Virus record (IMG/VR): IMGVR_UViG_3300020472_000160
Span: 1 to 24,450 of that record
Strand: one strand, 5' to 3'
Source: a virus
Length of the DNA stretch: 24,450 bases
In this document: piece after piece, positions 486 through 16,571 of the stretch
Numbering within the stretch: the first letter of the stretch is position 1
Layout of the letters: each line of letters opens with the position of its first letter
Program-made: the position numbers and the translations under genes
Notes under the pieces: model-generated
Database searches by the model: none
What the model saw: only the letters and a program-made list of their open reading frames with translations
What the model was told of the DNA's origin: nothing

Positions 486-489
486 ATCC

Positions 490-1785
490 TTAACCTATAA
501 TCGTGAAAAAGGCACAGTCTGTAACAGAACAGGTAGCATCTGCTCTTACTTGCACTATACCAGAACCCTTTTGACTGTCTTCATCTCCGACATAAAATGG
601 TAAAACAAACTGTTTCTCATACTCAACACCTGCTCCATCATTTAAAAGAGCATCAGCAGATTCAAGATAGAAAGTAAATCCAGATAAAGTAGTCCAAGCA
701 ATCCTAGTTTTAACTGTAGTATTATTTACATTAGGAATAAACTTAACACCCAATCTAAAAATAAGATGCCCATCTAATGGAAGTTGCTTTAGTAAAATCT
801 TATTAGTAGCTGCATCATAAACACAATCAACACCACTGTCTCTTGGTAACCATTGCCTCTTACTAGAACCTGATGTTCCATCATTAGTTAGTTGTGTCCA
901 AGTATCAGCAGCAAGATTAATAGGAGTAGTTTCTAAAGCCTTATCACTAACATACTCCCAACCATCATTATTAAGTTCACCACCTCCACCAACAGTTGCT
1001 AACTGTTGTTGTATTCTATTAATGAATAATCGATAATGTGATTGTAAATCATCTAAAGTAGCATACTTTTGATCCAATGGAGTTAGTGGATCAGAGTTAT
1101 CTACCCAAGGAGGAATATTTAAAAGACCTTCTTGAAGTGGTTTTTGTTCAAGAGGTTGTTGAACAACATCAACAGATTTATATGTATCTCTTACATACTC
1201 AATCTTCTCTTCAAGTCTCTTAATATTATTAGATACATCACCAGAAAGAATATCTTGTACTTCAGATAAAACTTCCTCTTTTATATCTTTAAGATTATTA
1301 ATCTGGGAGTCTTCAAATACAACTTTTACATTAGAAAGTTCTTTAGAAAGTTTATCTTGATGCTTCTCAAATACAGTAACCTCGGATTTTACATTAGAGA
1401 GTTCTTTACTAACGCTATCTTGAAGAACAATGCTTGATTGCTCATAATCATTCAATGCTCCATGAACTCTTCCTTCTAAAATTTGATTAGATTTCTCAAT
1501 CTCATCAACCTTATAGATAATTTCTTTTTGGAAAGAAGCAATTTTCTTATTAAATCCTTCTAATATTTCAGAATAATCATCAATAGATTTAAAATTCTTA
1601 TCTATAACCTCAGTTAAAGTACCATTTAAAGAACTAGCAACTGTATCAAGTTGAGTTCTAAGAGTATCTACTTTACCAAGTTCCTCTTTTATACGAGAAA
1701 AATCCTCATCCGCATTGGGTGAGGTTGCCTTAGAAGTTTTAAATTTTACATCATCAAATAATTCTGATGGTTTCTTTAACGGCAC
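490..1785 (-). CDS. Coiled-coil, fibre-like virion structural protein
   Basis: 431 residues from a GTG start; an in-frame TAA eight codons upstream leaves no ATG alternative near the N-terminus. Residues about 25-205 are charged and heptad-like (long coiled coil) and contain two copies of SKELSNVK 21 residues apart. A linker (about 206-265, with PPWVDNSDPLTPLDQKY) leads to a GGGG hinge near 266-269, and the last 160 residues are beta-rich (alternating hydrophobics, many Thr/Asn, ending CAFFTIIG). Coiled-coil shaft plus compact beta C-terminus is the usual plan of trimeric phage fibre or whisker proteins; that is inference from architecture, as I recognise no named family. It lies just after gp41 behind a late-promoter-like octamer, fitting a late virion gene. 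Confidence 0.65.
   Translation of the reverse strand: MPLKKPSELFDDVKFKTSKATSPNADEDFSRIKEELGKVDTLRTQLDTVASSLNGTLTEVIDKNFKSIDDYSEILEGFNKKIASFQKEIIYKVDEIEKSNQILEGRVHGALNDYEQSSIVLQDSVSKELSNVKSEVTVFEKHQDKLSKELSNVKVVFEDSQINNLKDIKEEVLSEVQDILSGDVSNNIKRLEEKIEYVRDTYKSVDVVQQPLEQKPLQEGLLNIPPWVDNSDPLTPLDQKYATLDDLQSHYRLFINRIQQQLATVGGGGELNNDGWEYVSDKALETTPINLAADTWTQLTNDGTSGSSKRQWLPRDSGVDCVYDAATNKILLKQLPLDGHLIFRLGVKFIPNVNNTTVKTRIAWTTLSGFTFYLESADALLNDGAGVEYEKQFVLPFYVGDEDSQKGSGIVQVRADATCSVTDCAFFTIIG
1324..1408 (-). repeat. 63-bp-offset direct repeat inside the coiled-coil gene
   Basis: A 22-base segment at 1324-1345 recurs at 1387-1408 with one or two differences. The offset of 63 bases equals 21 codons, i.e. 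three heptads, and both copies encode SKELSNVK. This looks like an internal duplication that kept coiled-coil register. Confidence 0.7.
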
Positions 1786-1807
1786 TTTATCAAGATTTCT
1801 TTTTTAC

Positions 1808-1815
1808 TATTTATT
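1808..1815 (-). promoter_or_regulatory. T4-type late promoter candidate before the structural genes
   Basis: The minus strand reads AATAAATA, 7 of 8 matches to the T4 late -10 box TATAAATA. It lies in the 33-bp gap between gp41 and the coiled-coil structural gene, 23 bp upstream of its GTG. Placement before a virion gene, in a phage carrying a gp55 homologue, supports late use. No -35 is needed for gp55 promoters. Confidence 0.5.
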
Positions 1816-1818
1816 ACA

Positions 1819-3192
1819 TCACGAAAACTTAAATCCCGCAAAAGATTTTTTAGGTTTTTCATCTTCATTAACATACTCTTCTTCTTGGCCACTATCTACT
1901 ATATCAGTCTGGGCACTTTGCTCACAATCATACAGTCTCATCTTGGCACGATCAATACCTACAACAAATCTCTTGAAGATGGTAGGATCATTATATCTAT
2001 TCTTCAACTGCTTAACCATTATCTGGTTTAAACCTTCCAACTCTTCTGTACTAATAAGAGCAAACATAAGATCAGCAGTAGCGGGAAGACCGAATGACTC
2101 ACTGGTATCAGTGAGATCGACATCACTACTAGCAAACCCACTACGAGTGGTTTGAGTTGCCGAGAAGATTGGAAGATTTGACTCAACCGCAAGTCCTCTA
2201 AGTTCTTCTGCAATTGCTTTAATGTATGAGTATGAGTTGACATTACTTCCTGCTCTATATCTAGAGGACGCACATATATTTAAGTAATCAATGAATATTA
2301 TATCAGGTTTAAACGATTTTTTCAATGCTAGTTCATTTAACAATGATTTAAAATGTCCTGAATGGGCAGATGCAGTAGGATACTCTTTAATAATAAGAGT
2401 TCCTTGTGTCTTTTTAGCAAGATTTGTAACCTTATTCTCAAACATCATCTGAGGAAGTTCTGTTATATCTTGAATAGGAACATTAAGTAAGTTAGCATCG
2501 ATCCTCTCCGCAATCTTTTCCTCTGCCATTTCGAGAGTGATGTAGAGGACATTCTTTCCTTGGAGGAGGACACTGCTAGCCACATGGCACATAAATAAAG
2601 ACTTTCCAACCCCTGTGCCAGCAAGAGCAATGTTGAGAGTCTTATTCGGAATACCTCCTTTCGTAATCTTGTCAAAGAGTTCCAAGTCGAACGGGATTTT
2701 ATCTTCTTTCCTATGGTACGATTCATACCTTTCTTCATAATCATTCAAATAATCGTGGCCTATATGATTGTCAAATGATACCGATAATGCATCAGAGAGA
2801 ATAGATGGTATAGCATCTCTATTCTTTTTCTCATCATTACCGTCAGCAATATGGATTGATTCCATAAGTGCCAAATATATAGCACGATCACGACACCATT
2901 TCTCAGTAGAATCAATCAACCACTGATTCTCCACAACAGATTCTGTTAGGTTCATTTCCCTAATCTCCTTTACCTCTGTTTCGGTAAGGTCTGTTCTATT
3001 TTCAGTCTCAATAGTTAGTGCTTCAAGTGTGATTGAAGAACCATATTTCACAATAAAGTTAGCAATCTCTTCAAAGATTATCTTTTCAGATCGTTGTTCA
3101 AAATATTCTGGTTGAATAAAAGGTATAACCTTCCTAGAATATTCTTCATTGTATATTAAGTTCTTGAGAATAGTAGTCTCAATTCGTTCCAT
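1819..3192 (-). CDS. gp41: Replicative DNA helicase (DnaB family, T4 gp41)
   Basis: 457 residues, close to T4 gp41 (about 475). The hexameric helicase unwinds the fork 5'-3' on the lagging strand and contacts primase. An N-terminal helical DnaB-like domain occupies about residues 1-110, followed by a RecA-type motor: Walker A AGTGVGKS at 191-198, the conserved ITLEMAEEK segment near 218-226, and Walker B IIFIDYLNI at about 298-306. Downstream blocks include SATQTTR and LKNRYND, as in DnaB motifs 3 and 4. The C-terminal tail is acidic and then basic (EEEYVNEDEKPKKSFAGFKFS region), resembling a partner-binding tail. The ATG overlaps the uvsX stop by 14 bp. This is the last replication gene before the structural genes. 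Confidence 0.95.
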   Translation of the reverse strand: MERIETTILKNLIYNEEYSRKVIPFIQPEYFEQRSEKIIFEEIANFIVKYGSSITLEALTIETENRTDLTETEVKEIREMNLTESVVENQWLIDSTEKWCRDRAIYLALMESIHIADGNDEKKNRDAIPSILSDALSVSFDNHIGHDYLNDYEERYESYHRKEDKIPFDLELFDKITKGGIPNKTLNIALAGTGVGKSLFMCHVASSVLLQGKNVLYITLEMAEEKIAERIDANLLNVPIQDITELPQMMFENKVTNLAKKTQGTLIIKEYPTASAHSGHFKSLLNELALKKSFKPDIIFIDYLNICASSRYRAGSNVNSYSYIKAIAEELRGLAVESNLPIFSATQTTRSGFASSDVDLTDTSESFGLPATADLMFALISTEELEGLNQIMVKQLKNRYNDPTIFKRFVVGIDRAKMRLYDCEQSAQTDIVDSGQEEEYVNEDEKPKKSFAGFKFS

Positions 3193-4186
3193 AACTAAAA
3201 TATTGCTTTGCTATAGCATCAAGTTTTTCCATTATATCATCAGTAAAGTATTCTGTAGGATTCTTAAGGATTTCTTTAGCATATATCTTTTTACCATTCA
3301 TTTCATAACGTCCAGCAACATTTTTCCACATTCCTCCAAGTTCCCCCAATTCTAGGAGACCATAATACCTATCAAGTCCTCTTTCATCATAATAGAGACG
3401 TATCTCTACTTGTTTATTTTCTTTTGAGAGTCTTGATTTATGTGTCTTAGCTTTAATAATGTTTCCAATAACCTCTTTCTGATCCTTTTCCTTTTTTTTA
3501 GTGAGATAAATGATCGTACTTGCGGCATATTTGAGACCAGAGCCTCCTCCCATTTCTTTAGTAGGGACGTAAGAGCCGATAACATCGTAGGTGTGGTTTG
3601 TAACTATTAGGGGTATGTTTGCTTGACCAAGTTTAAGTGTAAGCATTCTAAATGCTCCTTTAACAAGTTGGGATTTGGTCATATCCCTGACCTGCTTATC
3701 ATCTAATGCATCTCTAATCTCTTTCTCTGTAGAAAGCATACCTAGAGAATCTAACACAAACATACAAGGTTTGCGTTCTTCTTCAGATGTTTTTAAGTAT
3801 ATATCAACTGCCTTAAGTGCCTTGGTACGGAATTCCTCAATGGTCACCACATTGACGACCACCAGGCGTTTCATATCTATACCACGTGACTCAAGTAGTC
3901 CTTTATTAACAGCAGCTTCAGTATCGAAATAGAGACAGTAACCGTCAGGATTATTATCCAAAAAGTTCTTGACAACTGCGAGGGAGAAGAAAGTTTTACC
4001 AGTACTAGACTCACCAGCGATGGCAGTAATCTTATTGCCAGATACGCCACCAAAAATGGAACCGCTAACCAGTCCGTTAAAGATGTACGAACCTGTGTCG
4101 ATGAAGTCTTCTTTTTCTTCAATGTCTGCTGCGAGTCTGGTGTAGTCATCGCCAATCTCTTTTACAATTTCTTTCAAAAAATCCAT
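3179..4186 (-). CDS. uvsX: UvsX RecA-like recombinase
   Basis: 335 residues (T4 UvsX is about 390). It polymerises on single-stranded DNA and drives strand exchange for recombination-dependent replication and repair. Walker A is GESSTGKT at 58-65, with the RecA-like FDTEAAVNK segment at about 87-95 carrying the catalytic acid. Walker B is FVLDSLGM at about 143-150, and the LIVTNHTYDVIGSY segment matches the sensor/L2 area. The GGGSGLKYAASTIIYL block is typical of UvsX. The ATG sits in a TAATG overlap with the stop of the small gene upstream, so translation is probably coupled. Shorter length reflects a reduced C-terminus, usual in marine relatives. Confidence 0.95.
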   Translation of the reverse strand: MDFLKEIVKEIGDDYTRLAADIEEKEDFIDTGSYIFNGLVSGSIFGGVSGNKITAIAGESSTGKTFFSLAVVKNFLDNNPDGYCLYFDTEAAVNKGLLESRGIDMKRLVVVNVVTIEEFRTKALKAVDIYLKTSEEERKPCMFVLDSLGMLSTEKEIRDALDDKQVRDMTKSQLVKGAFRMLTLKLGQANIPLIVTNHTYDVIGSYVPTKEMGGGSGLKYAASTIIYLTKKKEKDQKEVIGNIIKAKTHKSRLSKENKQVEIRLYYDERGLDRYYGLLELGELGGMWKNVAGRYEMNGKKIYAKEILKNPTEYFTDDIMEKLDAIAKQYFSYGTN

Positions 4187-4356
4187 TAAATACTAATCCC
4201 CTTTTGTTCACGTAAAATTTTCTTGTAAGGTCCATCAGGATTAAGTTCCCTGACTTCTTTCACCTCTTTTAAAAGATGATATAATCTAGCATCGCCCCCC
4301 AATGATAATGCGTTTATTATTGTTGATAAATCTTTATCGTTAATAGGTAATTCCAT
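4186..4356 (-). CDS. Small conserved-type protein between gp43 and uvsX
   Basis: The frame is open from 4401 (71 residues), but I prefer the internal ATG at 4356, which forms a TAATG overlap with the gp43 stop and follows a TCTCCT-containing region. This matches the 1-bp coupling seen at its own stop with uvsX. The 56-residue product starts MELPINDKDLSTIINAL and is helical and charged, with GGDARLYHLLKEVKEVREL and a basic C-terminus (PYKKILREQKGISI). No signal peptide or membrane segment. I do not recognise a function. Conserved position between polymerase and recombinase suggests a replication or recombination accessory, which is inference only. Confidence 0.7.
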   Translation of the reverse strand: MELPINDKDLSTIINALSLGGDARLYHLLKEVKEVRELNPDGPYKKILREQKGISI

Positions 4357-6854
4357 TAGGAGAAAAATGACTCTAGGTTTGCTGTTTTTTCCACATCCCA
4401 TTCTATAGCATTTAGAATGGCTCGAAGTGGTTCCACGAAACTTTTATCAAATTGTAGATCATAATCAATGTATTTGTCAAGACCAAGTTCGTGAGGAAAA
4501 TCTTGAATAAAGGATAGCACATTTTCTTGAATAATGTTTGGTTTCTTCAAATAAAGAAACTTAACTTTCTCTCCATTTCCTATGAGAGAATACTTATTAT
4601 CCAATTTTTTTTGCTTCACATAATGATTGAAAAGCAATGCACCACGTATATGTATAGGAGTTCCTTTTGCATAGATTGTAGAATGTGCTTTATACTTTTG
4701 TAGATTGTTTGCTGTCCGTGGAAAAGCAATATCTTCAGGTGGAAGTTTTCTAAAATTAGTTCTACATTCTTCAATATACTTCTGAACATTCTCTTCAGTA
4801 TCATTCATAATCAACTTCAAAGCATCCTTAATCATTGCCCTACAAGGTGCTGGTGTAGAGGATTTAACTGCCTCAATACCCATCATCTTTAGTTTGGGTT
4901 CTTCATATCGAACACCCTCACTATCCCATACGTTTAAGATGTATCTTTTCTTGGCAGTCCATATACCACGTTCAGCAATGTTCTCCCTCTTCATGACCAT
5001 CTTATTATCATAGGCACTTACGTACTTGGCCAACGTTTCATAAGAACTCTCAATAAAAGGTTCAAATTGAGTTTCACACACCTTATTAAGGAACGTGACA
5101 ACGCCTTCATTAGTTTTCTCTCTGCCCTTGTATACAGCGTCAACCAGAGGCCCCATATTAAGATAAATGGAATCAGTATCTGAAGCAATAACATAATCAA
5201 CCTCCTCAGTTTTTAAAATATTATTGATGTGGGCATTCATCTTGTTCTCTATCCAACGAATAGATACCTGCCCACTTAAGGTAATGGCTTCAGCGTTAGC
5301 CAGTTTGTAGTATCGAAAATACTGATTGCCAATAGCACCATAAGCACTATTAAGTTGAATCTTTCTGGCCATCTGAATATTGTTACATCTAGCAATCTCC
5401 TTTTCAAGAGTCTTTGTTTTTGTTTTTTCATACTGCTGCTTTGCGGCAAGCATCTTCTTCTTGTAGATGGTGCGGTCTTTGTAAATCTTCTCCATGAGTT
5501 CAGGAAGGAACCCACGCACATCCTTCCTATATTGTGCTCCATTCGCACAAACTGCATAATCCCCATCAATTGTTATCTCCTGCTCTTCGAGGAGTCTATC
5601 AACTGTAACGGATGGATGCCGTTGTTCACAGAGGGTTTCTGGGGAAATATTATATTGCATAATAAGGTGAGGGTACAGACTGTTGAGATCAAAACTAACA
5701 ACCCAATCATACTTTCCTGCTTTCGGTTCCTTGACATAAGCACCTGCGTATTTTGCATCCTTATCGGATCTTTCTTTTGGGGGAATAACTATATTCCTCT
5801 TCTTTAAATAATTATAGATTATCGTATCCCACATACGAACCTGATAAAATACATCAGCATAGTTTGCCTTTGCGTCATATGCCATAACTATGGCAAGTTC
5901 AATCAGTTTCATCTTGTCTTCCATACGGTCAACAAGTTCCACGTCAATGATATTATACTCTACAAACTTCTGCCAACCATTTGTGTAGAAGTCCTTAAAA
6001 GTATCAAACTCACTGTGGTCTAACTTCTTCTGACCTAGTTCTACACTGGCAATATAATCCAACCTATAAGACTCTTGTGCCTTATAAGTAAACTTCCTAT
6101 ACAAGTTAAGATAATCAAGTTGAGTAACTCCACCCAAATCGTAGATAAGTTGCCTACGACCCATGATATGAGTTTCCTTTTCAGTAACCAATCCCCAAGG
6201 TGATAACCTTTTCTTTAGTTTCTCACCCAATATTCTATCCATACGACGTGCCAAGTATGGAATATCATACAACTCAATATTCCAACCAGTTACAATCTCT
6301 GGAGTATTCTCCTCAATCATCCACCATTCAATAAAACTTGAAAGGAGAGCATACTCTGTTTTAAATGATTTGTATATCACATTGGGTTGTTTATTGTCAA
6401 AAGGGCCCAAACCCCATGTGCGAATCTGTTTAGTATTGTAATCCTGAATACTAATAAGTAATACTTCTTCAGCAGCAGATTCTACATCAGGGAATCCATT
6501 CTCTGACTTAACCTCAATATCAAGTGTAGTTATTTTTATCTGACTTATATCAAACCTAATCTCTTCTTCTGGATAGTTATCCGAAATATATTGATATATA
6601 AATCTCTCATTACCATAAATCTTAAAGTTCTCAACCTCATCATACTTTTTAATAAACTCTCTACAATCTCTTACACTACCAGGTTTAATGGGTTCAACAG
6701 ACTCACCTTCCAATGTCCTGTATTTTGTTTTCCTTTTAGATGGTACAAATAAAGTTGGATTAAATGGTTCTCTAGTTGCAAAATGTCTTCCATTATCGAC
6801 ACCACGAACTAGAAAGTTGTTTCCAACCATCTGAACATTTGTATAAAATCGCAT
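4356..6854 (-). CDS. gp43: DNA polymerase, family B (T4 gp43)
   Basis: 832 residues, a little shorter than T4 gp43 (898). The 3'-5' exonuclease motifs are ExoI with D112 and E114 (TTLDIEV), ExoII N192-D197 (WNIELYD) and ExoIII Y300-D304 (YNIID). Polymerase motif A is DLNSLYP at 389-395, motif B has K498 with NSAYGAIGN at 502-510, motif C is DTDS at 559-562, and KKRY is at 635-638. All catalytic residues are present, so both activities should be intact. The C-terminus (VEKTANLESFFS) resembles the clamp-binding tail of T4 polymerase, an inference from its terminal position and hydrophobic residues. The gene begins in a TAATG overlap with an Sm-like gene and ends in one with the next small gene. 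Confidence 0.97.
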   Translation of the reverse strand: MRFYTNVQMVGNNFLVRGVDNGRHFATREPFNPTLFVPSKRKTKYRTLEGESVEPIKPGSVRDCREFIKKYDEVENFKIYGNERFIYQYISDNYPEEEIRFDISQIKITTLDIEVKSENGFPDVESAAEEVLLISIQDYNTKQIRTWGLGPFDNKQPNVIYKSFKTEYALLSSFIEWWMIEENTPEIVTGWNIELYDIPYLARRMDRILGEKLKKRLSPWGLVTEKETHIMGRRQLIYDLGGVTQLDYLNLYRKFTYKAQESYRLDYIASVELGQKKLDHSEFDTFKDFYTNGWQKFVEYNIIDVELVDRMEDKMKLIELAIVMAYDAKANYADVFYQVRMWDTIIYNYLKKRNIVIPPKERSDKDAKYAGAYVKEPKAGKYDWVVSFDLNSLYPHLIMQYNISPETLCEQRHPSVTVDRLLEEQEITIDGDYAVCANGAQYRKDVRGFLPELMEKIYKDRTIYKKKMLAAKQQYEKTKTKTLEKEIARCNNIQMARKIQLNSAYGAIGNQYFRYYKLANAEAITLSGQVSIRWIENKMNAHINNILKTEEVDYVIASDTDSIYLNMGPLVDAVYKGREKTNEGVVTFLNKVCETQFEPFIESSYETLAKYVSAYDNKMVMKRENIAERGIWTAKKRYILNVWDSEGVRYEEPKLKMMGIEAVKSSTPAPCRAMIKDALKLIMNDTEENVQKYIEECRTNFRKLPPEDIAFPRTANNLQKYKAHSTIYAKGTPIHIRGALLFNHYVKQKKLDNKYSLIGNGEKVKFLYLKKPNIIQENVLSFIQDFPHELGLDKYIDYDLQFDKSFVEPLRAILNAIEWDVEKTANLESFFS

Positions 6855-7138
6855 TACTTTTTAATCAGTGCTTGATACTTTTCAAGAATATTCTCTGCAG
6901 GTTCTGCAAGAGTTATTATCTTATCAGAACTTATCATAAATGTAGTATCTGGTGTAAAACTTTGTAACCATGGTTGAAGAAGAACCTTACCTTCCTCAAT
7001 AGTGAGTTTTTCTTCAGTAGTTTTTAATATTACTGGATGGATTAACTTACAATCAGGTTCTCCCATTTCAGCACCAACTTCTTCAATCTCACTTACTAGG
7101 ATTTCTTTGCTATTTAAAACTATTAGTTTAATTACCAT
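6854..7138 (-). CDS. Sm-like (LSm-type) small protein, copy A
   Basis: 94 residues from ATG 7138, chosen over an upstream TTG at 7165 because it gives an 11-bp overlap with the upstream gene and aligns with its paralogue's start. The sequence alternates short beta strands (IKLIVLNSKEILVSEIEEV, then VLLQPWLQSF, then FMISSDKIITLAEP) and ends in a helix (AENILEKYQALIKK). The same order, with PW-x-x-x and the IITL-x-x-P block, occurs in the adjacent gene at 7128-7433 and in the gene at 23129-23557. I recall a solved Sm-like protein of putative cyanophage origin with this type of sequence. RNA binding as a ring is therefore plausible but not shown. The stop overlaps the gp43 start (TAATG). Confidence 0.65.
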   Translation of the reverse strand: MVIKLIVLNSKEILVSEIEEVGAEMGEPDCKLIHPVILKTTEEKLTIEEGKVLLQPWLQSFTPDTTFMISSDKIITLAEPAENILEKYQALIKK

Positions 7139-7433
7139 TTGTCTTTTCCTTATACATTTCAACAATACTATCCACTGGATCTACGATTGTAACTATCCAG
7201 TCTTTAGTTACAGGAATCTTTTCATCTTTTGCCAGTACTATCCAAGGTGATAAAGAAACTTCAAGTTCACCAGAGGACTCTCCTTGATTCTCAGCAAGAA
7301 ACGTAGGCACATTCCACTCAACAAGATGAGGTTTTTTAAATAGGTATCCACATACTTTATCATCTGATACCAGTTCTTTAGCATCAGAGATTACGTTTTC
7401 TCCTGATTTCAATAAAGCAATTTTAATTGACAT
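7128..7433 (-). CDS. Sm-like (LSm-type) small protein, copy B
   Basis: 101 residues from ATG 7433, preceded directly by AAAAAGGAC. The pattern is IKIALLKSGENVISDAKEL, a variable loop, then LEVSLSPWIVLAKDEKIPVTKDWIVTIVDPVDSIVEMY. This matches copy A strand by strand (LxSxExxxS; LxPW; DxIVTIxxPxxxIxExY), so the two are tandem paralogues. The LKSGE and TIVDP elements are what I associate with phage Sm-like proteins; a small beta-barrel nucleic-acid binder is likely. It is the first gene after the terminator/promoter at 7454-7489, so it heads the transcript carrying gp43, uvsX and gp41. Confidence 0.68.
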   Translation of the reverse strand: MSIKIALLKSGENVISDAKELVSDDKVCGYLFKKPHLVEWNVPTFLAENQGESSGELEVSLSPWIVLAKDEKIPVTKDWIVTIVDPVDSIVEMYKEKTNGN

Positions 7434-7453
7434 GTCCTTTTTGCGTTACATCC

Positions 7454-7482
7454 ATTATAGCAATAAAAAAGGGTTCCGTCAA
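7454..7482 (-). promoter_or_regulatory. sigma70-type promoter heading the Sm-like/gp43/uvsX/gp41 cluster
   Basis: Minus strand: TTGACG at 7482-7477, a 17-bp spacer, and TATAAT at 7459-7454 with an upstream TGC (extended -10). The -10 ends 21 bp before the ATG of the first Sm-like gene. The -35 box overlaps the loop and first stem base of a terminator hairpin. Confidence 0.8.
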
Positions 7483-7489
7483 GGAACCC
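7465..7489 (-). terminator. Rho-independent terminator after hsp20
   Basis: Minus strand: 7-bp stem GGGTTCC/GGAACCC (7489-7483 with 7477-7471), 5-base loop TTGAC, then six T's (7470-7465). It follows the hsp20 stop by 26 bp. It separates the RegA-HAD-Hsp20 transcript from the polymerase cluster. Confidence 0.85.
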
Positions 7490-7512
7490 GTTTGATCCAT
7501 CTCGAACCACTT

Positions 7513-7520
7513 TATTTATA
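7513..7520 (-). promoter_or_regulatory. Exact T4 late-promoter octamer at the end of hsp20
   Basis: Minus strand TATAAATA, a perfect match to the T4 late -10 element, overlapping the hsp20 stop codon. A transcript from here would meet the terminator at 7465-7489 within about 30 bases. It may be a chance match in AT-rich sequence. Confidence 0.25.
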
Positions 7521-7950
7521 GATACTTCTTACGAGCATGATGATCTGGAACTATCTTCTTTAACTCCACGGTGAGGAGTCCGTCTGCAAACTCGACGGAT
7601 CCAATCTCCGTATCGTCGGAGACCGTCCAAACTCGTTCAAAACTTCGTTGGGCCAATCCTTTGTGGACAAACGTTCCATCAACTTTCGATTCTTCTTTTC
7701 TGCCTTCGACATATAACTTTCCAAACTCCGTGAAGACTTGTAGTTCATCTTTCTTAAACCCCGCAAGGGCGATCTCCAATTTTGATTCATGATTATTTAA
7801 CTGTATCAAGTTGTATGGTGGATAATTTGATTGTGGATAGTCCGAATTAAAGAATCTTTCTAGGTAATCATCCATACCTATTCCATTCTTTTGAATCCTT
7901 TCCATTAATTCTGGAAGGTTAGCTGCGTGATAGCGTTGTAGTGCGTTCAT
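7516..7950 (-). CDS. hsp20: Small heat-shock protein, Hsp20 / alpha-crystallin family
   Basis: 144 residues. An N-terminal helical arm (about 1-35) precedes an alpha-crystallin domain (about 45-133): YPPYNLIQ, the signature ALAGFKKDEL at 61-70, the LYVEGRKEE strand, the AQRSFERVWTV strand and FADGLLTVELKK. The short tail ends HARKKYL. The family holds unfolding proteins as an oligomeric ATP-independent chaperone. Hsp20 genes are a common feature of T4-like cyanophages, where assembly or stress roles have been proposed. A strong ribosome site AAGGAG lies 5 bases before the ATG, unusual among the weak sites of this window, so high expression is likely. Its transcript ends at the terminator just downstream. 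Confidence 0.92.
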   Translation of the reverse strand: MNALQRYHAANLPELMERIQKNGIGMDDYLERFFNSDYPQSNYPPYNLIQLNNHESKLEIALAGFKKDELQVFTEFGKLYVEGRKEESKVDGTFVHKGLAQRSFERVWTVSDDTEIGSVEFADGLLTVELKKIVPDHHARKKYL

Positions 7951-7961
7951 GGTTCTCCTTA
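7951..7961 (-). promoter_or_regulatory. Strong ribosome binding site of hsp20
   Basis: The minus strand reads TAAGGAGAACC immediately before ATG 7950, placing AAGGAG at the ideal distance. The 70-bp gap upstream (7951-8020) holds no further gene; a late-type ATTAAATAG string lies within it but has no clear partner. Confidence 0.7.
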
Positions 7962-8020
7962 AATAAGCGAGTGTAAATGTTGTCCCTTACGGCGACATTA
8001 CTATTTAATCACACATCTTA

Positions 8021-8734
8021 TTAGGAAGCATCGGTTAACTCTATAAGTTTGGTTCGGGTTTCCTTCCAATTTTTAACATGGTACGTATAACCGCCCATCT
8101 TCTTTACTGCTTCCCCTAAAGTATAATCATTCCCAGTAGTCTCCATTCTATCTCCAAAGAAATATATTTCATCATCTTTAGAAAAATCTCTTAATATTTG
8201 ACTCTTATCACTACCAGAAGGCCCAATATCAAGACCCGTCTGACCGCCCAATGCTACAGTTAAATCTGGAAATGTGTTCTTAATTCTATTAGCAATATCC
8301 TCTCTTTCCATTCTTTCCTCATCCCATTTCATATAATCCTTCCTTCCTACAGATGGATCTTTACCTCTTCCCAAAATACTAAAGTTAACTCCACCAGGTC
8401 TTCTTTCAATATGCAATCCATTACGAATAGGAAAACAACTGTATGCTAACTCATCCATTAAAAATTTCTCAACTTCTATTGGCAACTCCCAATCATCTCT
8501 ATAAACACTTACATCCTTTTCATAAACATCACTACCAGAACAGTTATATAACCGTTTAGCAGTATGGCATATATCCAATCCCAGTTGCTCTACTGTCTTC
8601 TGCCTATCACTACCAGTGACAAGATAAACATCATGTTCACGGCAGAATATAAGAAAAGGTGCCCAGAACTCATGTTTAATTTCTTTCCTACTAGGTGTCA
8701 AAGTCCCATCAACATCAAAAATAAATTTTCTCAT
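8021..8734 (-). CDS. HAD-superfamily phosphatase of the phosphomannomutase (PMM, HAD-IIB) type
   Basis: 237 residues, near the usual length of eukaryotic-type PMM (about 245). HAD motif I is FDVDGT at 6-11 with nucleophile D7 and acid/base D9. The cap region has NGLHIERRPGGVNFSILGR (about 105-123), matching the PMM segment with an Arg and an Asn that bind the sugar phosphate, and a WDEE-R block near 137-144. GGQTGLDIGPSGSDKSQ carries motif III Lys (K177), and FFGDRMETTGNDY (192-204) is motif IV with the metal-binding acids. PMM interconverts mannose-6-P and mannose-1-P for GDP-mannose. Whether this copy is a mutase or only a phosphatase is open. It lies between a small gene and hsp20. Confidence 0.8.
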   Translation of the reverse strand: MRKFIFDVDGTLTPSRKEIKHEFWAPFLIFCREHDVYLVTGSDRQKTVEQLGLDICHTAKRLYNCSGSDVYEKDVSVYRDDWELPIEVEKFLMDELAYSCFPIRNGLHIERRPGGVNFSILGRGKDPSVGRKDYMKWDEERMEREDIANRIKNTFPDLTVALGGQTGLDIGPSGSDKSQILRDFSKDDEIYFFGDRMETTGNDYTLGEAVKKMGGYTYHVKNWKETRTKLIELTDAS

Positions 8735-8737
8735 AAT

Positions 8738-8962
8738 TTAATAATCAAATTCATCCAATACATCCAATGCACTATTTAATGCTTGTTGAGCTGCCCATCT
8801 TTCCTTACTATCCCAATCAGGATACCAAGATTTGTTACCAATCCCCTTCTTTATATTAAGGAGTCTTGCTTCCATATCAGTTTTTTTAAGTCTTCCGTTC
8901 ATATAAGTTCTATACCTACTATCAGGCCAAGTACAACTAGCGTACTTCCGTGGAAATAGCAT
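8738..8962 (-). CDS. Small hypothetical protein, Trp/Arg-rich
   Basis: 74 residues from ATG 8962. GTG codons at 8968 and 8965 are in frame, but the ATG sits 6-7 bases after AGGAGG, the better start. It overlaps the upstream coiled-coil gene by 26 bp and stops 3 bp before the HAD gene. The product is basic in its first half (RYRTYMNGRLKKTDMEARLL) and helical at the end (ERWAAQQALNSALDVLDEFDY), with several Trp residues. No membrane segment or signal. I do not recognise the family. Confidence 0.65.
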   Translation of the reverse strand: MLFPRKYASCTWPDSRYRTYMNGRLKKTDMEARLLNIKKGIGNKSWYPDWDSKERWAAQQALNSALDVLDEFDY

Positions 8963-9146
8963 CACCACCCTCCTCCTGATTAAAGGTATCCTCTAATTTT
9001 TGTTTAAGAGCAATAAGTTGTTCTTTAAGCTCTGCGTTTTCTTGTTCTAGTTTTTGAATCTCGTTTTCGTAGACAGTAATCATGCGTTCTTGTTGTTCGT
9101 TGATTTCTTCTAGTTCAAACCAAGATCTTATGTGATCAAAGCCCAT
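8937..9146 (-). CDS. Small coiled-coil protein
   Basis: 69 residues, starting MGFDHIRSWFELEEINEQQER. Residues about 13-57 form one continuous charged heptad pattern (ENEIQKLEQENAELKEQLI), a probable parallel coiled coil, followed by an acidic tail (EEGGDAISTEVR). The ATG has an AAGGATGG ribosome site 5-6 bases upstream, which overlaps one arm of a small hairpin. It is the first gene after regA, following a 73-bp gap that may carry a promoter. Function unknown; an oligomerising adaptor is the simplest reading. Confidence 0.7.
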   Translation of the reverse strand: MGFDHIRSWFELEEINEQQERMITVYENEIQKLEQENAELKEQLIALKQKLEDTFNQEEGGDAISTEVR

Positions 9147-9155
9147 TGAACCATC

Positions 9156-9175
9156 CTTGTATAGTTATTTACAAG
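9156..9175 (-). promoter_or_regulatory. Hairpin overlapping the ribosome site of the coiled-coil gene
   Basis: 6-bp stem CTTGTA/TACAAG with an 8-base AT-rich loop. The 3' arm shares AAG with the AAGGA ribosome site before ATG 9146, so it could hide the site. It lies just downstream of regA, whose product represses translation at initiation regions; a link is speculative. Confidence 0.35.
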
Positions 9176-9185
9176 TTTTATATTT

Positions 9186-9193
9186 TCTTTATA
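9186..9193 (-). promoter_or_regulatory. Late-promoter-like octamer after regA
   Basis: Minus strand TATAAAGA, 7 of 8 matches to TATAAATA, inside the 73-bp gap between regA and the coiled-coil gene. No acceptable sigma70 -35/-10 pair was found in the gap. Weak evidence. Confidence 0.3.
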
Positions 9194-9219
9194 AGAGTTA
9201 ATATAGGTAAACGAAGACG

Positions 9220-9660
9220 TTATTGTTCTTCTTCAACCTTTTTCTTCTTACTACCTATATTATACTTGGTTTCTAAAATCCACTCACCTTTATCACGATA
9301 TGCTAATACTTTAATCTGATTAAGAGGTGCTATGTCTTGTATTTTAGTTGCATCTACGATACTAATAAGTCCCCAATCAGCAAGCAACTGAGCAATACGA
9401 TTCCTACGCTGAACGTCGTTAGCAGTAAAGTTAGCGTGTTTCCCGTCGAGGGCAAATAATTCTTTGAAGTGGACAAGGTAATACCTTCCTTGCTTATGCA
9501 GTATATGACACGATTGATATATCTTCTTTTCTTTTCTGGATGCTACTCCAATTCTTGTAAGAGTCTCTCTGACTTTTAAGAAATCATCAGGTTCGTTTAA
9601 AGTAACCTCGACCATTTGCTCAGGTGACCATTTCACCTCAGGTTCTTGAACCACACTCAT
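9220..9660 (-). CDS. regA: RegA translational repressor
   Basis: 146 residues. From residue 17 the sequence follows T4 RegA closely: MVEVTLNEPDDFLKVRETLT, RIGVASRKEKKIYQSCHIL, YYLVHFKELFALDGKHANFT, RRNRIAQLLADWGLISIV and a final KYNIGS. RegA binds AU-rich translation initiation regions of early phage mRNAs and blocks ribosome entry. T4 RegA is 122 residues; here there is a 16-residue N-terminal extension and a basic/acidic C-terminal tail (KKKKVEEEQ). The start at 9660 is chosen because it forms an ATGA overlap with the gp62 stop, but an internal ATG at 9612 corresponds to the T4 start. Position after gp62 is the same as in T4. Confidence 0.93.
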   Translation of the reverse strand: MSVVQEPEVKWSPEQMVEVTLNEPDDFLKVRETLTRIGVASRKEKKIYQSCHILHKQGRYYLVHFKELFALDGKHANFTANDVQRRNRIAQLLADWGLISIVDATKIQDIAPLNQIKVLAYRDKGEWILETKYNIGSKKKKVEEEQ

Positions 9661-10040
9661 TGTCTTCCTCCAGTTTCAAATTTAGATTTGATAAATTCAA
9701 GTTGTTCTTGTGTTAGGATTCTCAAAGCCTGTTTTGCCTTTTCATTACTATAACCATAATAACGTTTTACCAAGTCAAGGTCTTTGATCTCATCTTTACG
9801 TAACCAAGGAGAGAATCTCTTCTTAGTTCTCAAGATATTTAGAAAAAAATCATATTGAAGTTTTTTTGGTAAAAAATGATACTGGTTCATCTCATTTGCC
9901 ATCATAACAGAATCAAGATGTCCAGAATAAATGCGATTAATAATGTATGGAGAATACTCTTTCTCTAAAGAAGAATCCTCATCTATTAAGTTCTTTTTTG
10001 TTTGGTTGATTGATGATAACCACTCTTTCAATTCAGTCAT
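9657..10040 (-). CDS. gp62: Clamp loader small subunit (T4 gp62)
   Basis: 127 residues, shorter than T4 gp62 (187). With four gp44 subunits it forms the clamp loader that opens the gp45 ring using ATP. The sequence is helical with no ATPase motifs, as expected: LKEWLSSINQTKKNLI, EKEYSPYIINRIYSGHLDSV, MNQYHFLPKKLQYDFFLNIL, RTKKRFSPWLRK and KRYYGYSNEKAKQALRIL. The YSPYIINR-x-YS, H-x-LPK-x-Q-x-D and RFSPW-x-K elements are those I associate with gp62. Identity is supported by position directly before regA. ATGA overlaps mark both ends, coupling it to a small gene upstream and to regA. Confidence 0.88.
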   Translation of the reverse strand: MTELKEWLSSINQTKKNLIDEDSSLEKEYSPYIINRIYSGHLDSVMMANEMNQYHFLPKKLQYDFFLNILRTKKRFSPWLRKDEIKDLDLVKRYYGYSNEKAKQALRILTQEQLEFIKSKFETGGRQ

Positions 10041-10210
10041 GATAAATTCTTTCTTTTATAAGTTTCATCTAATTGTGCTTCAAGTATATATTCCATACTA
10101 TCCAAGTTCTCACGTAGATATTTTTCCCACTGATTACCTTCGATAAGATCATGAAGATGATCTATATGCTCTAAAGCAAACATTAGTTTAGTTTGTTCAT
10201 TCATTCTCAT
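10037..10210 (-). CDS. 57-residue hypothetical protein before gp62
   Basis: A short frame (57 residues) whose start and stop both lie in ATGA overlaps with its neighbours, which is the main evidence that it is a gene. The product begins MRMNEQTKLMFALEHIDHLH and continues as an acidic amphipathic helical protein (DLIEGNQWEKYLRENLDSME, then YILEAQLDETYKRKNLS). A GGAG-containing AAGGAGTTATC stretch lies 6 bases before the ATG. No known family recognised. Confidence 0.65.
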   Translation of the reverse strand: MRMNEQTKLMFALEHIDHLHDLIEGNQWEKYLRENLDSMEYILEAQLDETYKRKNLS

Positions 10211-10350
10211 GATAACTCCTTAATCTTATCTCGCCAATACTGACGGTCCTCATCACTTATCCAAGGATTATATTTATGAATATGTGCATGATTTAACCAC
10301 TGTTCTGTAGTCCAATCTTTCTTTGGTCCCAAGTGATCTTTAAGACTCAT
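10207..10350 (-). CDS. 47-residue hypothetical protein, Trp/His-rich
   Basis: Begins at ATG 10350, overlapping the upstream small gene by 11 bp, and ends in an ATGA overlap with the next. The product starts MSLKDHLGPKKDWTTEQWLN and has HAHIHKYNPWISDEDRQYW, rich in Trp and His. The first residues (MSLKDH) resemble those of the upstream gene (MSLEDH), possibly a shared N-terminal motif. No known family. Confidence 0.6.
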   Translation of the reverse strand: MSLKDHLGPKKDWTTEQWLNHAHIHKYNPWISDEDRQYWRDKIKELS

Positions 10351-10537
10351 TATGAATCTCTTTGTGCATCTTATCCATCTCTCTGGATTTATTCTTGATT
10401 ATGATTCTATCATTCTTATAATCAGGAACCATCTCTAGAACATCCATGTGATCCCAACATAGTTCTTCATAAAGCATATTAAGACGATCCATATCTTCAT
10501 ATAAATCATTAATGTGTTCGTGGTCTTCTAAGCTCAT
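10340..10537 (-). CDS. 65-residue acidic hypothetical protein
   Basis: Starts in an ATGA overlap with the DruA-like gene. The product is acidic and helical at first (MSLEDHEHINDLYEDMDRLN, then LYEELCWDHMDVLEMVPDY) and basic later (KNDRIIIKNKSREMDKMHKE). No membrane segment, no recognised domain. The tight coupling on both sides supports it as a gene; its role is unknown. Confidence 0.65.
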   Translation of the reverse strand: MSLEDHEHINDLYEDMDRLNMLYEELCWDHMDVLEMVPDYKNDRIIIKNKSREMDKMHKEIHNES

Positions 10538-11658
10538 CGGATAATTTGGATGTTATTGTCTTCAGTCCAGAGTTCGACTTTATCTCTGAATCTATTTTCT
10601 TGTTTAAGTTTCTCATATCTCTTGGTTGCTTTACGCTTCCACCAAGAAACAATGTTCTCTAAATGAAACTTGTCCCAGTTCTGACCTTTCCTTAATTTAT
10701 CATCTTCACCAAGTAGTACTTCACGAATGTTAGCATACCCATAATCAGAAATATAAAATCTTTTCTTTTGAGTGAGTCCGAATGCCATATCTATGACAGC
10801 ATTAAACTTCTCTAGTTTTTCAGTCTTACCATATTCCTTTAGAGAGTTTTTAGTCCAAGAAATCATTTTAGTCTGTCTCTTCATCTTCTTGGAAGATGCT
10901 TTATTATCTGTTAGAGGTTCATTACCATTCAGTTTGGTAAAGTGATCATGGAGTTTGTGAAACACGTCTGCATGGAGCAGAGGGAGGAACTTACTCTCTG
11001 TTAGACCTTTATACCTCATAAACGGTTTAAGACCGTCATACTGCGATGCTGATGTGGTAGAACCATACAAGGATGTAGTCTCAAATAAACCAATCTCCTT
11101 CTCAAACACTTCATTTAATGTTTCTCTAGCAAAATGAGAAAGACATAAAAGTGCCAGAAGTTTACCACCCAGATAATTATATCCAAAAGGTTGTGATGGA
11201 ACTATTACAAATCCCATCACGGCATGACGATTAAATATTGAAAGATTAGGTTGATGACCTAACCAAAGATTTCTCGGTTTAGAGTTAATAGTAGGAGACC
11301 CAAAACGAATAAATCCCAGTACCTGCTGAGACCTTTTCTCATAGACCATCCAACGAAGTTCTCTACCTGGTATATTACTTTCATTGTTATGTGACGAAAC
11401 TGCTTGTAGAAGGTTTACATAATGTTCTTGTGGAAGTGATTGCTGAAATCTTTTACCAATAAATTTAATATCAAACTCCATCTCTTCAGGATGGATATCC
11501 TCATTAAAAAACTCATCCTTTAATGATGTTAAAGGATTCTCTTCAGCAACTATTTCTCTCTTTACATATCGAAGATAATCTTCAATAGAGGTAAAGTTTT
11601 CAAAGTAATCAATAAATTCATCGGCAGCCCATTCGGCATCAGCCTCAGGAATAATCAT
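10534..11658 (-). CDS. DruA / DUF4338-like protein
   Basis: 374 residues from ATG 11658; a TTG at 11664 is in frame but less likely. After an acidic N-terminus (about 1-95), residues about 100-225 carry the elements I associate with DUF4338, the domain of DruA from Druantia defence systems: LRWMVYEKRSQQVLGFIRFG, RNLWLG, HAVMGFVIVP, NYLGGKLLALLCLSHFAR, GLFETTSLYGSTTSASQYDG and RYKGLTE. The C-terminal 140 residues are basic, with ISDYGYANIREVL and WWKRKATKRYEKLK, suggesting nucleic-acid contact. The biochemical activity is unknown to me. It sits in the clamp loader operon, overlapping the HTH-like gene upstream by 14 bp and coupled by ATGA to the gene downstream, which argues for a replication-linked role rather than imported defence. 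Assignment is by remembered motif only. Confidence 0.6.
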   Translation of the reverse strand: MIIPEADAEWAADEFIDYFENFTSIEDYLRYVKREIVAEENPLTSLKDEFFNEDIHPEEMEFDIKFIGKRFQQSLPQEHYVNLLQAVSSHNNESNIPGRELRWMVYEKRSQQVLGFIRFGSPTINSKPRNLWLGHQPNLSIFNRHAVMGFVIVPSQPFGYNYLGGKLLALLCLSHFARETLNEVFEKEIGLFETTSLYGSTTSASQYDGLKPFMRYKGLTESKFLPLLHADVFHKLHDHFTKLNGNEPLTDNKASSKKMKRQTKMISWTKNSLKEYGKTEKLEKFNAVIDMAFGLTQKKRFYISDYGYANIREVLLGEDDKLRKGQNWDKFHLENIVSWWKRKATKRYEKLKQENRFRDKVELWTEDNNIQIIR

Positions 11659-11839
11659 AATCAAGGGTCAATTGAATTTCATTATCAAAGTTGGTGTAAG
11701 TTGGCTCATGAAAAGCACAATACTCACTAAAGGTAATCATCATTTCCTTACGTGATAGATTACAATGTTTTGCTGCTTTTGGCAAGTTCCATTTAGCAGA
11801 AAACAACATTTCCATTGCTTCTCTAGTTTCTACTCTCAT
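11645..11839 (-). CDS. 64-residue helix-turn-helix-like protein
   Basis: Starts in an ATGA overlap with the gene upstream. Residues about 14-40 (AKWNLPKAAKHCNLSRKEMM) read as a helix-turn-helix: an Ala-Ala pair in helix 2, a Cys-Asn-Leu turn and a basic recognition helix. The rest (EYCAFHEPTYTNFDNEIQL) is acidic and aromatic. DNA binding is plausible but the domain is very small. It immediately precedes the DruA-like gene. Confidence 0.62.
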   Translation of the reverse strand: MRVETREAMEMLFSAKWNLPKAAKHCNLSRKEMMITFSEYCAFHEPTYTNFDNEIQLTLDYDYS

Positions 11840-12087
11840 ATGGCATCCATATCTCCACCATGCCTTGGTTGATGATTCTTCATACCATCATGGTTACCAT
11901 CATTAGGCAACTTACCTGACATCAAGTATTCAACAGTGTCTTTACATCCACGAAGATAATGAAGTTGAGCATCAACTTTAAGCCATTCTTCAGGTTGTTC
12001 TACCAATCCATCTCTTTTTTTAAGAACCTGGTCAAATCTTTTAGTAAATCTTTCTAAAAGTTGTTCATAGTTTTCTGTTTGTTTCAT
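11836..12087 (-). CDS. 83-residue hypothetical protein, coiled coil with His-rich tail
   Basis: Begins in a TAATG overlap and ends in an ATGA overlap. The first 57 residues are helical and charged (MKQTENYEQLLERFTKRFDQ, then VLKKRDGLVEQPEEWLKVDA and QLHYLRGCKDTVEYLMSGKL). The tail (NDGNHDGMKNHQPRHGGDMD) is rich in His, Asp and Gly and probably disordered; it could bind metal. No family recognised. Confidence 0.65.
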   Translation of the reverse strand: MKQTENYEQLLERFTKRFDQVLKKRDGLVEQPEEWLKVDAQLHYLRGCKDTVEYLMSGKLPNDGNHDGMKNHQPRHGGDMDAI

Positions 12088-12323
12088 TAATAAAACCTCT
12101 CATTATTATCGTAAGATCTTTCTAATTCAAGAACTACAGAATCCATAATACGATCAAAAGATCTTGACATCTGACGATATCCCGATCCAACATATAACTG
12201 GCCAGCAAATACTGACACCGTAGCAAGTCCCCAAAAGATATAATAGAACTTAGACTTTACTTGATTTCTTTGTTTTTCTTTTCTAACGCCCCATGATGGT
12301 GGCGGTGATCCATAACTAGTCAT
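12087..12323 (-). CDS. 78-residue single-pass membrane protein
   Basis: A Pro/Gly-rich then basic N-terminus (SPPPSWGVRKEKQRNQVKSK) precedes one hydrophobic segment at about 27-48 (FYYIFWGLATVSVFAGQLYV), followed by a charged helical C-terminus (RSFDRIMDSVVLELERSYDN). Basic residues before the segment predict an N-in topology. It is coupled by ATGA upstream and TAATG downstream. Function unknown. Confidence 0.65.
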   Translation of the reverse strand: MTSYGSPPPSWGVRKEKQRNQVKSKFYYIFWGLATVSVFAGQLYVGSGYRQMSRSFDRIMDSVVLELERSYDNNERFY

Positions 12324-12391
12324 TTTTTACTCCAAGGTTGATCATGATTTAAATTTAACCATTTTTTTATTTTATTCCATATTTTTTTCAT
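12320..12391 (-). CDS. 23-residue basic Trp-containing mini-protein
   Basis: A 24-codon frame whose start and stop are both in ATGA overlaps. The peptide begins MKKIWNKIKKWLNLN and ends DQPWSKK; it is strongly basic and amphipathic. No separate ribosome site beyond the overlap is clear. The four-base overlaps on both sides are the only strong evidence that it is translated. Confidence 0.5.
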   Translation of the reverse strand: MKKIWNKIKKWLNLNHDQPWSKK

Positions 12392-12453
12392 TTTAATAAG
12401 TTAATGTAAGCAGCAATAACTAGAAGAGTTAAACATAGTTGATTATACCTCAT
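12388..12453 (-). CDS. 21-residue hydrophobic mini-protein
   Basis: A 22-codon frame with ATGA overlaps at both ends. The peptide (MRYNQLCLTLLVIAAYINLL then K) is almost wholly hydrophobic and would span a membrane once. An AAGGAAT ribosome-like site lies about 7 bases upstream. It forms a series with the next basic mini-protein and the 78-residue membrane protein. Confidence 0.5.
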   Translation of the reverse strand: MRYNQLCLTLLVIAAYINLLK

Positions 12454-12671
12454 TTTTTATTCCTTAAGGGTGGTTTGGCTGGATAATATTGGAAACCAGT
12501 AGTTTTCTCTTCTAAATCTGACATCCTAAAGGTAATCATCTTATCCCAAGGTGTATGTGAATCCATAAGAACTGCTACATCATTACCACTAATTCTTTGA
12601 ACACATCCTTCATATCCAAGATATATAGATGTCTCATTAGTAACCGTAACAGTAGAACCTGGTAGTATCAT
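12450..12671 (-). CDS. 73-residue KOW/SH3-like small protein
   Basis: ATG 12671 is chosen because it gives an ATGA overlap with the gp44 stop; a GTG at 12683 is in frame. The product is beta-rich: MILPGSTVTVTNETSIYLGY, EGCVQRISGNDVAVLMD, WDKMITFRMSDLEEKT, then a Pro-rich basic end. The order GSTVxVT, EGxVxRI, AVLxD, W-K-ITFR resembles small SH3-like barrels such as KOW domains, and I remember similar small proteins in cyanophage replication clusters. Nucleic-acid or protein binding is possible. Confidence 0.65.
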   Translation of the reverse strand: MILPGSTVTVTNETSIYLGYEGCVQRISGNDVAVLMDSHTPWDKMITFRMSDLEEKTTGFQYYPAKPPLRNKK

Positions 12672-13609
12672 TTGAACTCGCACTCCACCATTATTTCAGT
12701 TAGACATGCAAGCATGTTTATTTCTTGGTCAGCGACGAATGCCATCTGATATTGATACTTAGCAATAACAAGAACAGCAGCAGGTATAGTAGTCGGAACC
12801 AAAGATTCGTAAAGACTATCATATATCCTACGGAATAGAACAGAAGTATCGTTGTCCATATTATTGTTGACCCACTTACGTACTTCAGGAAAGTTTTTTG
12901 CTTTAAGGTTTTTAATAAGGTCATTGACGGCAACATCAGAAAAAGCAGCTAATATACCACTATCTATTTTACCACCAACTGAGTATCTCTGACACTCATT
13001 CAATACTCTTCTCCAATCTGGAAAATGTTTATTGATAAGTTGAACTAATACTTTCTTATCTGCTTCTATCTTTTCCTGTTCAAGGATTTCGTTAATACGT
13101 TGAAAGAAGGCTGCAGCAATCTGCTGTTTCTCTTTTCCCCTAATACCGAACTCAATGACGGCACAACGGGAATGGAGGGGTTCAAGGATTTTGTTCTTAT
13201 AATTGCAGGTAAATATGAACCGACAGTTTCCTGCGAATTCCTCAATAAAGGCCCTAAGTAAGAGTTGAACGTCATTTCCTGTGTTGTCTGCTTCATCAAT
13301 AATTATAACTTTATGCTTTGCTTCAGATGTAAGAGAAACGGTAGATGCAAAGTTTTTTGCATTGTTTCGTACTGTGTCAAGGAATCTTCCTTCATCAGAT
13401 CCATTGATAACATAGAAGTCTACTCCAAGTTGATTACACAATGCTTTTGCTACAGTAGTCTTTCCTACACCAGGAGGACCAGCAAGTAACATATTTGGTA
13501 TCTCACCTTTACTAAGAAAATCTTTAAAAGTTTTCTTAATATTATCTGGAAGGATACACTCTTCAATTGTTTTGGGTCTGTATTTTTCAACCCATATAAA
13601 GTCACTCAT
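12668..13609 (-). CDS. gp44: Clamp loader ATPase subunit (T4 gp44)
   Basis: 313 residues (T4 gp44 is 319). An AAA+ ATPase that, with gp62, loads the gp45 clamp at primer ends. It starts with the RFC-type WVEKYRPKTIEECILP box. Walker A is GPPGVGKT at 44-51, Walker B IIIDEAD at 102-108, sensor 1 FIFTCNYK near 131-138, and the arginine finger SRC is at 147-149 (HSRCAVIEF). The remaining helical lid and collar region is present (FPDWRRVLNECQRYS). The start is in an ATGA overlap with a small gene, and the stop in another. A promoter-like pair lies inside the preceding small gene. Confidence 0.96.
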   Translation of the reverse strand: MSDFIWVEKYRPKTIEECILPDNIKKTFKDFLSKGEIPNMLLAGPPGVGKTTVAKALCNQLGVDFYVINGSDEGRFLDTVRNNAKNFASTVSLTSEAKHKVIIIDEADNTGNDVQLLLRAFIEEFAGNCRFIFTCNYKNKILEPLHSRCAVIEFGIRGKEKQQIAAAFFQRINEILEQEKIEADKKVLVQLINKHFPDWRRVLNECQRYSVGGKIDSGILAAFSDVAVNDLIKNLKAKNFPEVRKWVNNNMDNDTSVLFRRIYDSLYESLVPTTIPAAVLVIAKYQYQMAFVADQEINMLACLTEIMVECEFK

Positions 13610-14116: not shown

Positions 14117-14118
14117 AA

Positions 14119-16537: not shown

Positions 16538-16543
16538 ATTATA
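16538..16543 (-). promoter_or_regulatory. TATAAT -10 element after the terminator, before the AAA+ gene
   Basis: Minus strand TGC-TATAAT (extended -10). The hexamer 17 bp upstream (TACCAT) is a poor -35, and it falls in the terminator stem-loop. The context repeats that at 7454-7489: six T's, ATTGC, TATAAT. Confidence 0.5.
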
Positions 16544-16548
16544 GCAAT

Positions 16549-16571
16549 AAAAAAGGGGGTATGGTACCCCC
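16549..16571 (-). terminator. Rho-independent terminator after the Trp/His-rich gene
   Basis: 7-bp perfect stem GGGGGTA/TACCCCC with a 3-base loop (16555-16571), followed on the minus strand by six T's (16554-16549). It begins 15 bp after the stop of the gene at 16586. Confidence 0.85.

Follow-up and report, generated by a model that had tools for sequence, protein, structure and literature searches.

Gene content and anatomy of the locus

The window, i.e., the whole stretch of 24,450 nucleotides that was analysed, is a virus record that carries replication genes of T4-like cyanophage type, many of which it has in common with Prochlorococcus phage P-SSM2 (Kyanoviridae). According to the list of open reading frames (ORFs), almost all likely genes lie on the minus strand, including the co-directional genes for hsp20, DUF6561 and a gp43-type DNA polymerase (Table 1). 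The polymerase ORF matches the starts of annotated phage DNA polymerase genes at the DNA level, and P-SSM2 likewise has DUF-size genes ahead of gp43. A gene located 5' of hsp20 (8021-8734, minus strand) matches the eukaryotic phosphomannomutase family PF03332 (E 2e-22). The element described here sits between hsp20 and DUF6561.

On the minus strand the order is GGGTTCC, TTGAC, GGAACCC, TTTTTT, ATTGC, TATAAT, GGATGTAACGCAAAAAGGAC and ATG, starting with a terminator-type hairpin about 24 nt past the hsp20 stop. The first-pass annotation had placed a -35 box in the loop of a terminator, and this can be read directly from the DNA: the TTGAC loop forms TTGACG with the next stem base and is followed, after a spacer of exactly 17 bp, by an extended TATAAT. 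The 36-bp span and every coordinate given there agree with our reading as well, and the sequence anatomy bears out the view that the predicted stop and restart signals are packed together in a single element. The RNA of a 41-nt stretch folds with -12.5 kcal/mol (z -2.78), and 1 of 200 shuffles folded equally well. Because the predicted transcription start comes only after the hairpin, reading the element as an attenuator or as the leader of the next gene is ruled out; the ATG at 7433 follows this start by about 14 nt. T4 middle promoters have a MotA box near -30 and no -35, while here a -35 (TTGACG) is present 17 bp from the -10. An Rfam gathering search with the window and five loci gave no family at the element; the matches in other loci were manA, wcaG, a tRNA and PhotoRC-II.

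The stretch from the hsp20 stop to the hairpin, GGTTCGAGATGGATCAAA (window 7490-7515), is kept at the equivalent place in the homologous loci L210, L241, L262, and L266. Overlapping the hsp20 stop codon, TATAAATA (7513-7520, minus strand) corresponds to the T4-type late promoter motif, given as TATAAAT (PMC3037559). It is replaced by TCTAAATA in some relatives, given which it may simply represent Leu-stop codons.

Table 1. Features of the window, with examples of fused cassettes in cultured cyanophages.
Feature	Position	Strand	Basis or remark
hsp20, 144 aa, predicted last gene of upstream transcript	7516..7950	-	PF00011 E 7e-13; phrog_432 E 3e-53
hsp20 stop codon	7518-7516	-	sequence
Terminator hairpin GGGTTCC(TTGAC)GGAACCC	7471..7489	-	sequence, fold; 7-bp stem (5 G-C)
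Hairpin loop TTGAC, 5 bases	7482-7478	-	sequence
-35 hexamer TTGACG (five loop bases and first 3'-arm base)	7477..7482	-	sequence
T6 tract of terminator, within promoter spacer; predicted 3' end of hsp20 RNA	7465..7470	-	sequence
Extended -10, TGC TATAAT (hexamer 7459-7454)	7454..7462	-	sequence; TG one base before -10
Predicted transcription start	7446..7448	-	from distance to -10
Shine-Dalgarno-like AAGGA ahead of ATG 7433	7435..7439	-	sequence
DUF6561, 101 aa, predicted first gene of downstream unit	7128..7433	-	PF20198 E 1e-7; phrog_431 E 3e-26
Second DUF6561 gene	6854..7165	-	PF20198 E 7e-30
DNA polymerase gene (gp43 type), predicted downstream unit, after second DUF6561	4356..6854	-	832-aa ORF
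Second terminator, identical T6-ATTGC-TATAAT tail, loop cca	16538..16571	-	TACCAT in place of -35
Cyanophage fused cassette	P-SSM4 1923		behind gp32
Cyanophage fused cassette	P-SSM7 177775		before nrdC
Cyanophage fused cassette	S-PM2 124309		before hli gene

Chance expectation and further sites in the window

A promoter of this kind is not rare by itself, but its combination with a terminator is. Bases 1-20000 of the window hold 79 promoter-like sites, compared to 76.8 expected in shuffles, and only 5 of them, among them the promoter of the element, reach 11 of the 12 consensus bases. Of 300 shuffles of the window that preserved its dinucleotides, 4 contained a fused terminator/promoter of any sort, generously defined; the window itself has one. 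The 20-mer CCCTTTTTTATTGCTATAAT has two matches in the window with at most three mismatches, where 0.03 are expected. The CCY form of this 20-mer tail is carried by 103 viral contig stretches, and in the contig matches and the window together (105 sites, from a scan that did not require a -35) a -35 of at least 5/6 stands at 17 bp in 74 and is absent in 31. When TTGAC, CCC, T6 and TATAAT were fixed and the 5' arm was left free, at least 142 sites were retrieved, of which at least 139 could be read; 7/7 pairing of the 5' arm in strict register is seen at no fewer than 38 of these, and many of the remaining sites, among the matches listed, have hairpins in another register or compound hairpins.

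The other match in the window is a second terminator with an identical tail (Table 1), which precedes a cobS-like gene (15397-16512) and possibly represents a second class of promoter that relies on the extended -10. The contigs L004 and L058 resemble this site, and P-SSM2 has a hairpin with TATAAT ahead of cobS as well (132757). Another promoter-like TTGACG-N17-TATAAT site (15400-15372, minus strand) stands ahead of ORF 14809-15360 and is not accompanied by a terminator.

Conservation in homologs

Homologous loci were chosen by protein similarity on both sides of the element, and no DNA pattern of the element was used. For hsp20, 80 of 214 loci were kept, L316 was dropped because of too little downstream DNA, and the window was added. 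The resulting 66 unique downstream regions have a terminator in 37 cases and none in 29. In 33 of the 37 the terminator is fused to a promoter, with the -10 and the -35 each matching at 5/6 or better and the -35 beginning within the hairpin, while four are without a full promoter. These fused regions contain 19 distinct hairpin sequences, and the hairpins on this side include GGGTTCC(TTGAC), GGGGATC(TTGAC), AGCACCCT(TTGAC)A and compound forms, as well as GGGGTCT(TTAC)A, which yields the -35 TTTACA.

For DUF6561, 80 of 122 loci were kept, with L235 and L274 dropped (too little upstream DNA) and the window added. A terminator is present in 47 of the 48 unique upstream regions, and 39 of the 48 are fused, 14 with simple and 25 with compound hairpins. 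The compound hairpins have a CTGGC..CCAG tip and the -35 in their 3' half; in GGGAGGCAACTGGCAAAATCCAGTTGACGCCTCCC, for example, TTGACG lies partly in the 3' arm and partly in an internal loop. A scan for simple hairpins was insufficient here, as 32 of 49 regions escaped it, mostly those with compound hairpins. Eight of the 47 terminators do not have a good -35 or -10. Since some orthologous terminators on both the hsp20 and the DUF6561 side lack a good promoter, the -35 is not indispensable.

The first-pass annotation had suggested a comparison with related genomes to see if loop and -35 co-vary. They do: the stems and even the hairpin plan differ between relatives, while the -35 stays within the hairpin 16-17 bp before the -10. 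Among 22 distinct hairpins with a TTGAC loop, up to four types of Watson-Crick pair occur at stem positions 2-4, although these hairpins were selected for at least 6 pairs and are thus no independent proof of pairing. Rare in shuffles and kept in homologs that were not selected for it, the element is not due to chance.

The hairpin tip CTGGCAAAATCCAG (variants CACAAT and CACAAA) recurs in compound terminators of the upstream regions L209-L288 and is also found at S-SM2 121655, AG-345-L05 41280, and Syn9 164180, the last without a good promoter after it. It is kept despite a lost -35 in the L228 and L252 groups, and has no Rfam match among the loci searched.

Fused cassettes in T4-like genomes

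Records of T4-like phages were scanned genome-wide for promoters of at least 11/12 consensus bases with a spacer of 16-18 and a terminator hairpin ending inside this spacer. In 10 cyanophage records, 16 of 301 strong promoters are fused (P-SSM2 3, P-SSM4 2, P-SSM7 1, P-TIM68 2, S-PM2 2, S-SM2 4, AG-345-L05 2), compared to 1 of 252 in three shuffles each; in seven other T4-like phages there are 5 of 216, all in nt-1, compared to 1 of 128, the shuffles being rough in both cases, as they follow a simple path that may stop early. No fused case was found in Syn9 (0/30 promoters), S-SSM7 (0/35), and P-HM2 (0/20), and of the 16 the cases at S-SM2 58164, P-TIM68 155625, and S-PM2 188754 look weak. An earlier, looser test had given one weak case in P-HM2 (-6.1 kcal/mol), which was dropped under the stricter scan, and a count that admitted every -10 of 5/6 or better behind weak terminators was too noisy, so that the stricter counts are used. 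The cases in cultured cyanophages whose neighbours were examined lie between co-directional genes or at their very end (Table 1).

Independent of any -35, six cyanophages show a peak of exact TATAAT sequences after strong terminators, at 10-11 nt counted from where the T tract begins, with 13 sites in these two bins compared to 0.45 per bin further away. RB49, T4, and KVP40 have no exact TATAAT at this distance from the T tract of strong terminators. An initial supposition that only cyanophages have fused forms proved wrong, as nt-1 and KVP40 have them too.

Proposed function and alternative explanations

The PeSL (promoter early stem loop) of T4-like phages is a small intergenic cassette that unites a stem-loop with a strong sigma-70-like promoter. 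The element is probably a compact cyanophage form of it, a fused terminator/promoter cassette at which, judged by its sequence, the hsp20 RNA would stop and the DUF6561-gp43 RNA would start. The RNA from hsp20 and the genes upstream is predicted to end at the T6 tract, while a host sigma-70-type polymerase would use the same DNA as a -35/-10 promoter, presumably an early one, and begin, about 18 bp beyond, a new RNA that covers the DUF6561-gp43 replication unit. The hairpin would work solely in the upstream RNA and the -35 solely as double-stranded DNA, which is why one sequence could serve both roles, and most of the 17-bp spacer consists of the 3' arm and the T tract, fixing the geometry. 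In this way the cassette would insulate the hsp20 unit from the DUF6561-gp43 unit. A plain stop and restart suffices to explain the anatomy, because the predicted RNAs (end at about 7465, start at about 7447) share no sequence. Cyanobacteria are not known to have Rho, and intrinsic terminators would then matter more. The same bases can apparently encode both kinds of signal, intrinsic terminator and sigma-70 promoter, if the hairpin loop provides the -35 and the spacer takes up the T tract, and several hairpin plans seem to have arrived at this loop/spacer geometry at the same phage promoters.

An identical cassette stands before different genes. At 31 such sites the next gene is DUF6561 in 21, a member of a small-protein family in seven, a gene that we take to be PurH-like in one, another gene in one and unread in one, while hsp20 is upstream at 29. 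Varied genes behind one cassette are as expected if genes are exchanged there, and PeSLs are described as mediators of shuffling in a passage of the literature (PMC4503421). It is nevertheless unlikely that gene swapping at a short shared sequence is the main reason why the element is retained, with its roles in transcription being secondary. The 31 sites, with at least four kinds of downstream gene, are a partly biased sample, as hsp20 or DUF6561 served to retrieve many of the loci; conservation falls exactly on the bases of promoter and terminator; and the 19 kinds of hairpin diverge in a way that harms homology while preserving function.

Stop and restart could also be linked by the polymerase itself, if it lets go of the hsp20 RNA but not of the DNA and starts again from the promoter beneath it, so that upstream transcription feeds downstream initiation. 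Single-molecule work indicates that, once an intrinsic terminator has acted, bacterial polymerase usually remains bound to the DNA and, provided that sigma is available, reinitiates close by, with reinitiation after 37% of terminations and after 55% with added sigma-70 (PMC6978380). Another study describes antisense initiation sites enriched near terminators (PMC6978322). Such reuse would be easiest where a promoter overlies a terminator, and at the second site of the window, as at some other terminators, an extended -10 is kept although there is no -35, which would be the extreme case if the hand-over were true. The restart in that study is mainly antisense, however, the results come from a bacterial polymerase other than the cyanobacterial one, and, as a mild argument, a good -35 would be unneeded by a polymerase that is delivered, yet most sites keep one. 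We regard this hand-over as distinctly unlikely at the element, and it is doubtful that fused elements in marine T4-like phages generally couple units in this manner, with upstream activity setting downstream initiation. For the question of whether polymerase is reused after termination, the element offers a natural template that is ready to use.

The switch raised in the first-pass annotation, in which a promoter-held polymerase blocks upstream elongation, strong upstream transcription blocks promoter binding and two transcripts alternate, is an improbable reading of the element. With the footprint size of the polymerase, a promoter-bound enzyme would cover the entire hairpin, and the terminator/promoter overlap is kept in many relatives. 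Mutual exclusion of elongating and promoter-bound polymerase is physically plausible, but for any promoter so near a terminator. We saw neither opposing regulators or operators nor a region common to both transcripts, compactness by itself accounts for the overlap, and the tandem PeSLs of RB49 and phi1, with a hairpin 7-34 nt upstream of the -35, imply that overlap is unnecessary for the job of the cassette. A switch is thus unnecessary to explain the anatomy, and nothing that we found points to regulation. Finally, that the extruded hairpin itself is recognised, as in the DNA-hairpin promoter of the phage N4 virion polymerase, is extremely improbable. The single DNA strand does fold (-7.5 kcal/mol, z -3.41), but the element is a canonical -35/17/extended -10 promoter, and in relatives the hairpins differ completely while the hexamers stay. 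Nor did a gene for a phage RNA polymerase stand out among those of the window.

Comparison with known PeSLs

Stop and restart at a fused cassette places the element beside the PeSLs of T4-like phages; it behaves like one, and probably is one. It consists of a strong sigma-70-like promoter with a stem-loop in a small intergenic cassette between co-directional genes of a T4-like phage, and the 24-kb fragment holds one full copy and one with the identical tail but no -35. The assignment draws on the general description of PeSLs, on a short passage of the literature (PMC4503421) and on phage sequences that were read directly. That passage judges PeSLs to be sparse in cyanophage S-PM2; the scan for fused forms gives candidates in 7 of 10 cyanophage records.

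The PeSLs of RB49 and phi1, for which the source is reportedly work by Arbiol et al. from 2010, share with the element the pairing of a terminator with a strong early-type promoter. They are arranged in tandem, however, with a hairpin that ends 7-34 nt upstream of the -35 at 13 of 72 (RB49) and 12 of 69 (phi1) promoters, and fused promoters number 0/72 and 0/69, respectively; in the element the hairpin ends 12 nt downstream of the start of the -35. Closer are the PeSLs of the Vibrio phages nt-1 and KVP40, composite promoter-terminator motifs that are said to have been treated by Comeau, Arbiol and Krisch in 2014. Here the terminator and a sigma-70-like promoter are fused with the T tract near the -10, as in the element (5 of 21 strong promoters in nt-1; in KVP40, three hairpins whose -10 matches at 5/6 or better, in a relaxed scan). 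In contrast to the element, where the -35 is formed by the loop and the 3' arm, T6 and ATTGC precede TATAAT, their -35 (TTGAC after GGG) lies within the 5' arm and their -10 almost abuts the T tract, as in AAAGGGTTGAC(tacg)GTCAGCCCTTT-CTTG-TATTAT from the relaxed scan.

The cassettes of the cultured cyanophages P-SSM2, P-SSM4, P-SSM7, S-PM2, P-TIM68, and S-SM2 and of the single-cell virus AG-345-L05 resemble the element in that the hairpin ends in the spacer, often before TGC TATAAT, while they differ in their stems, in a spacing of 16 or 17 and in the -35 (TTTACA, TTGACA or TTGACT). Besides those in Table 1, they include P-SSM2 142801 and P-SSM4 40542. Cyanophages often place the -35 in the loop or 3' arm of the hairpin. 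A literature search, limited by licence, returned no published case of a -35 within a terminator loop. The PeSL kind is thus already known, and what seems to be new is the placement of the -35 in the loop or 3' arm, the repeated use of different hairpin plans at the same cyanophage promoters, and the fixed distance from the T tract to TATAAT.
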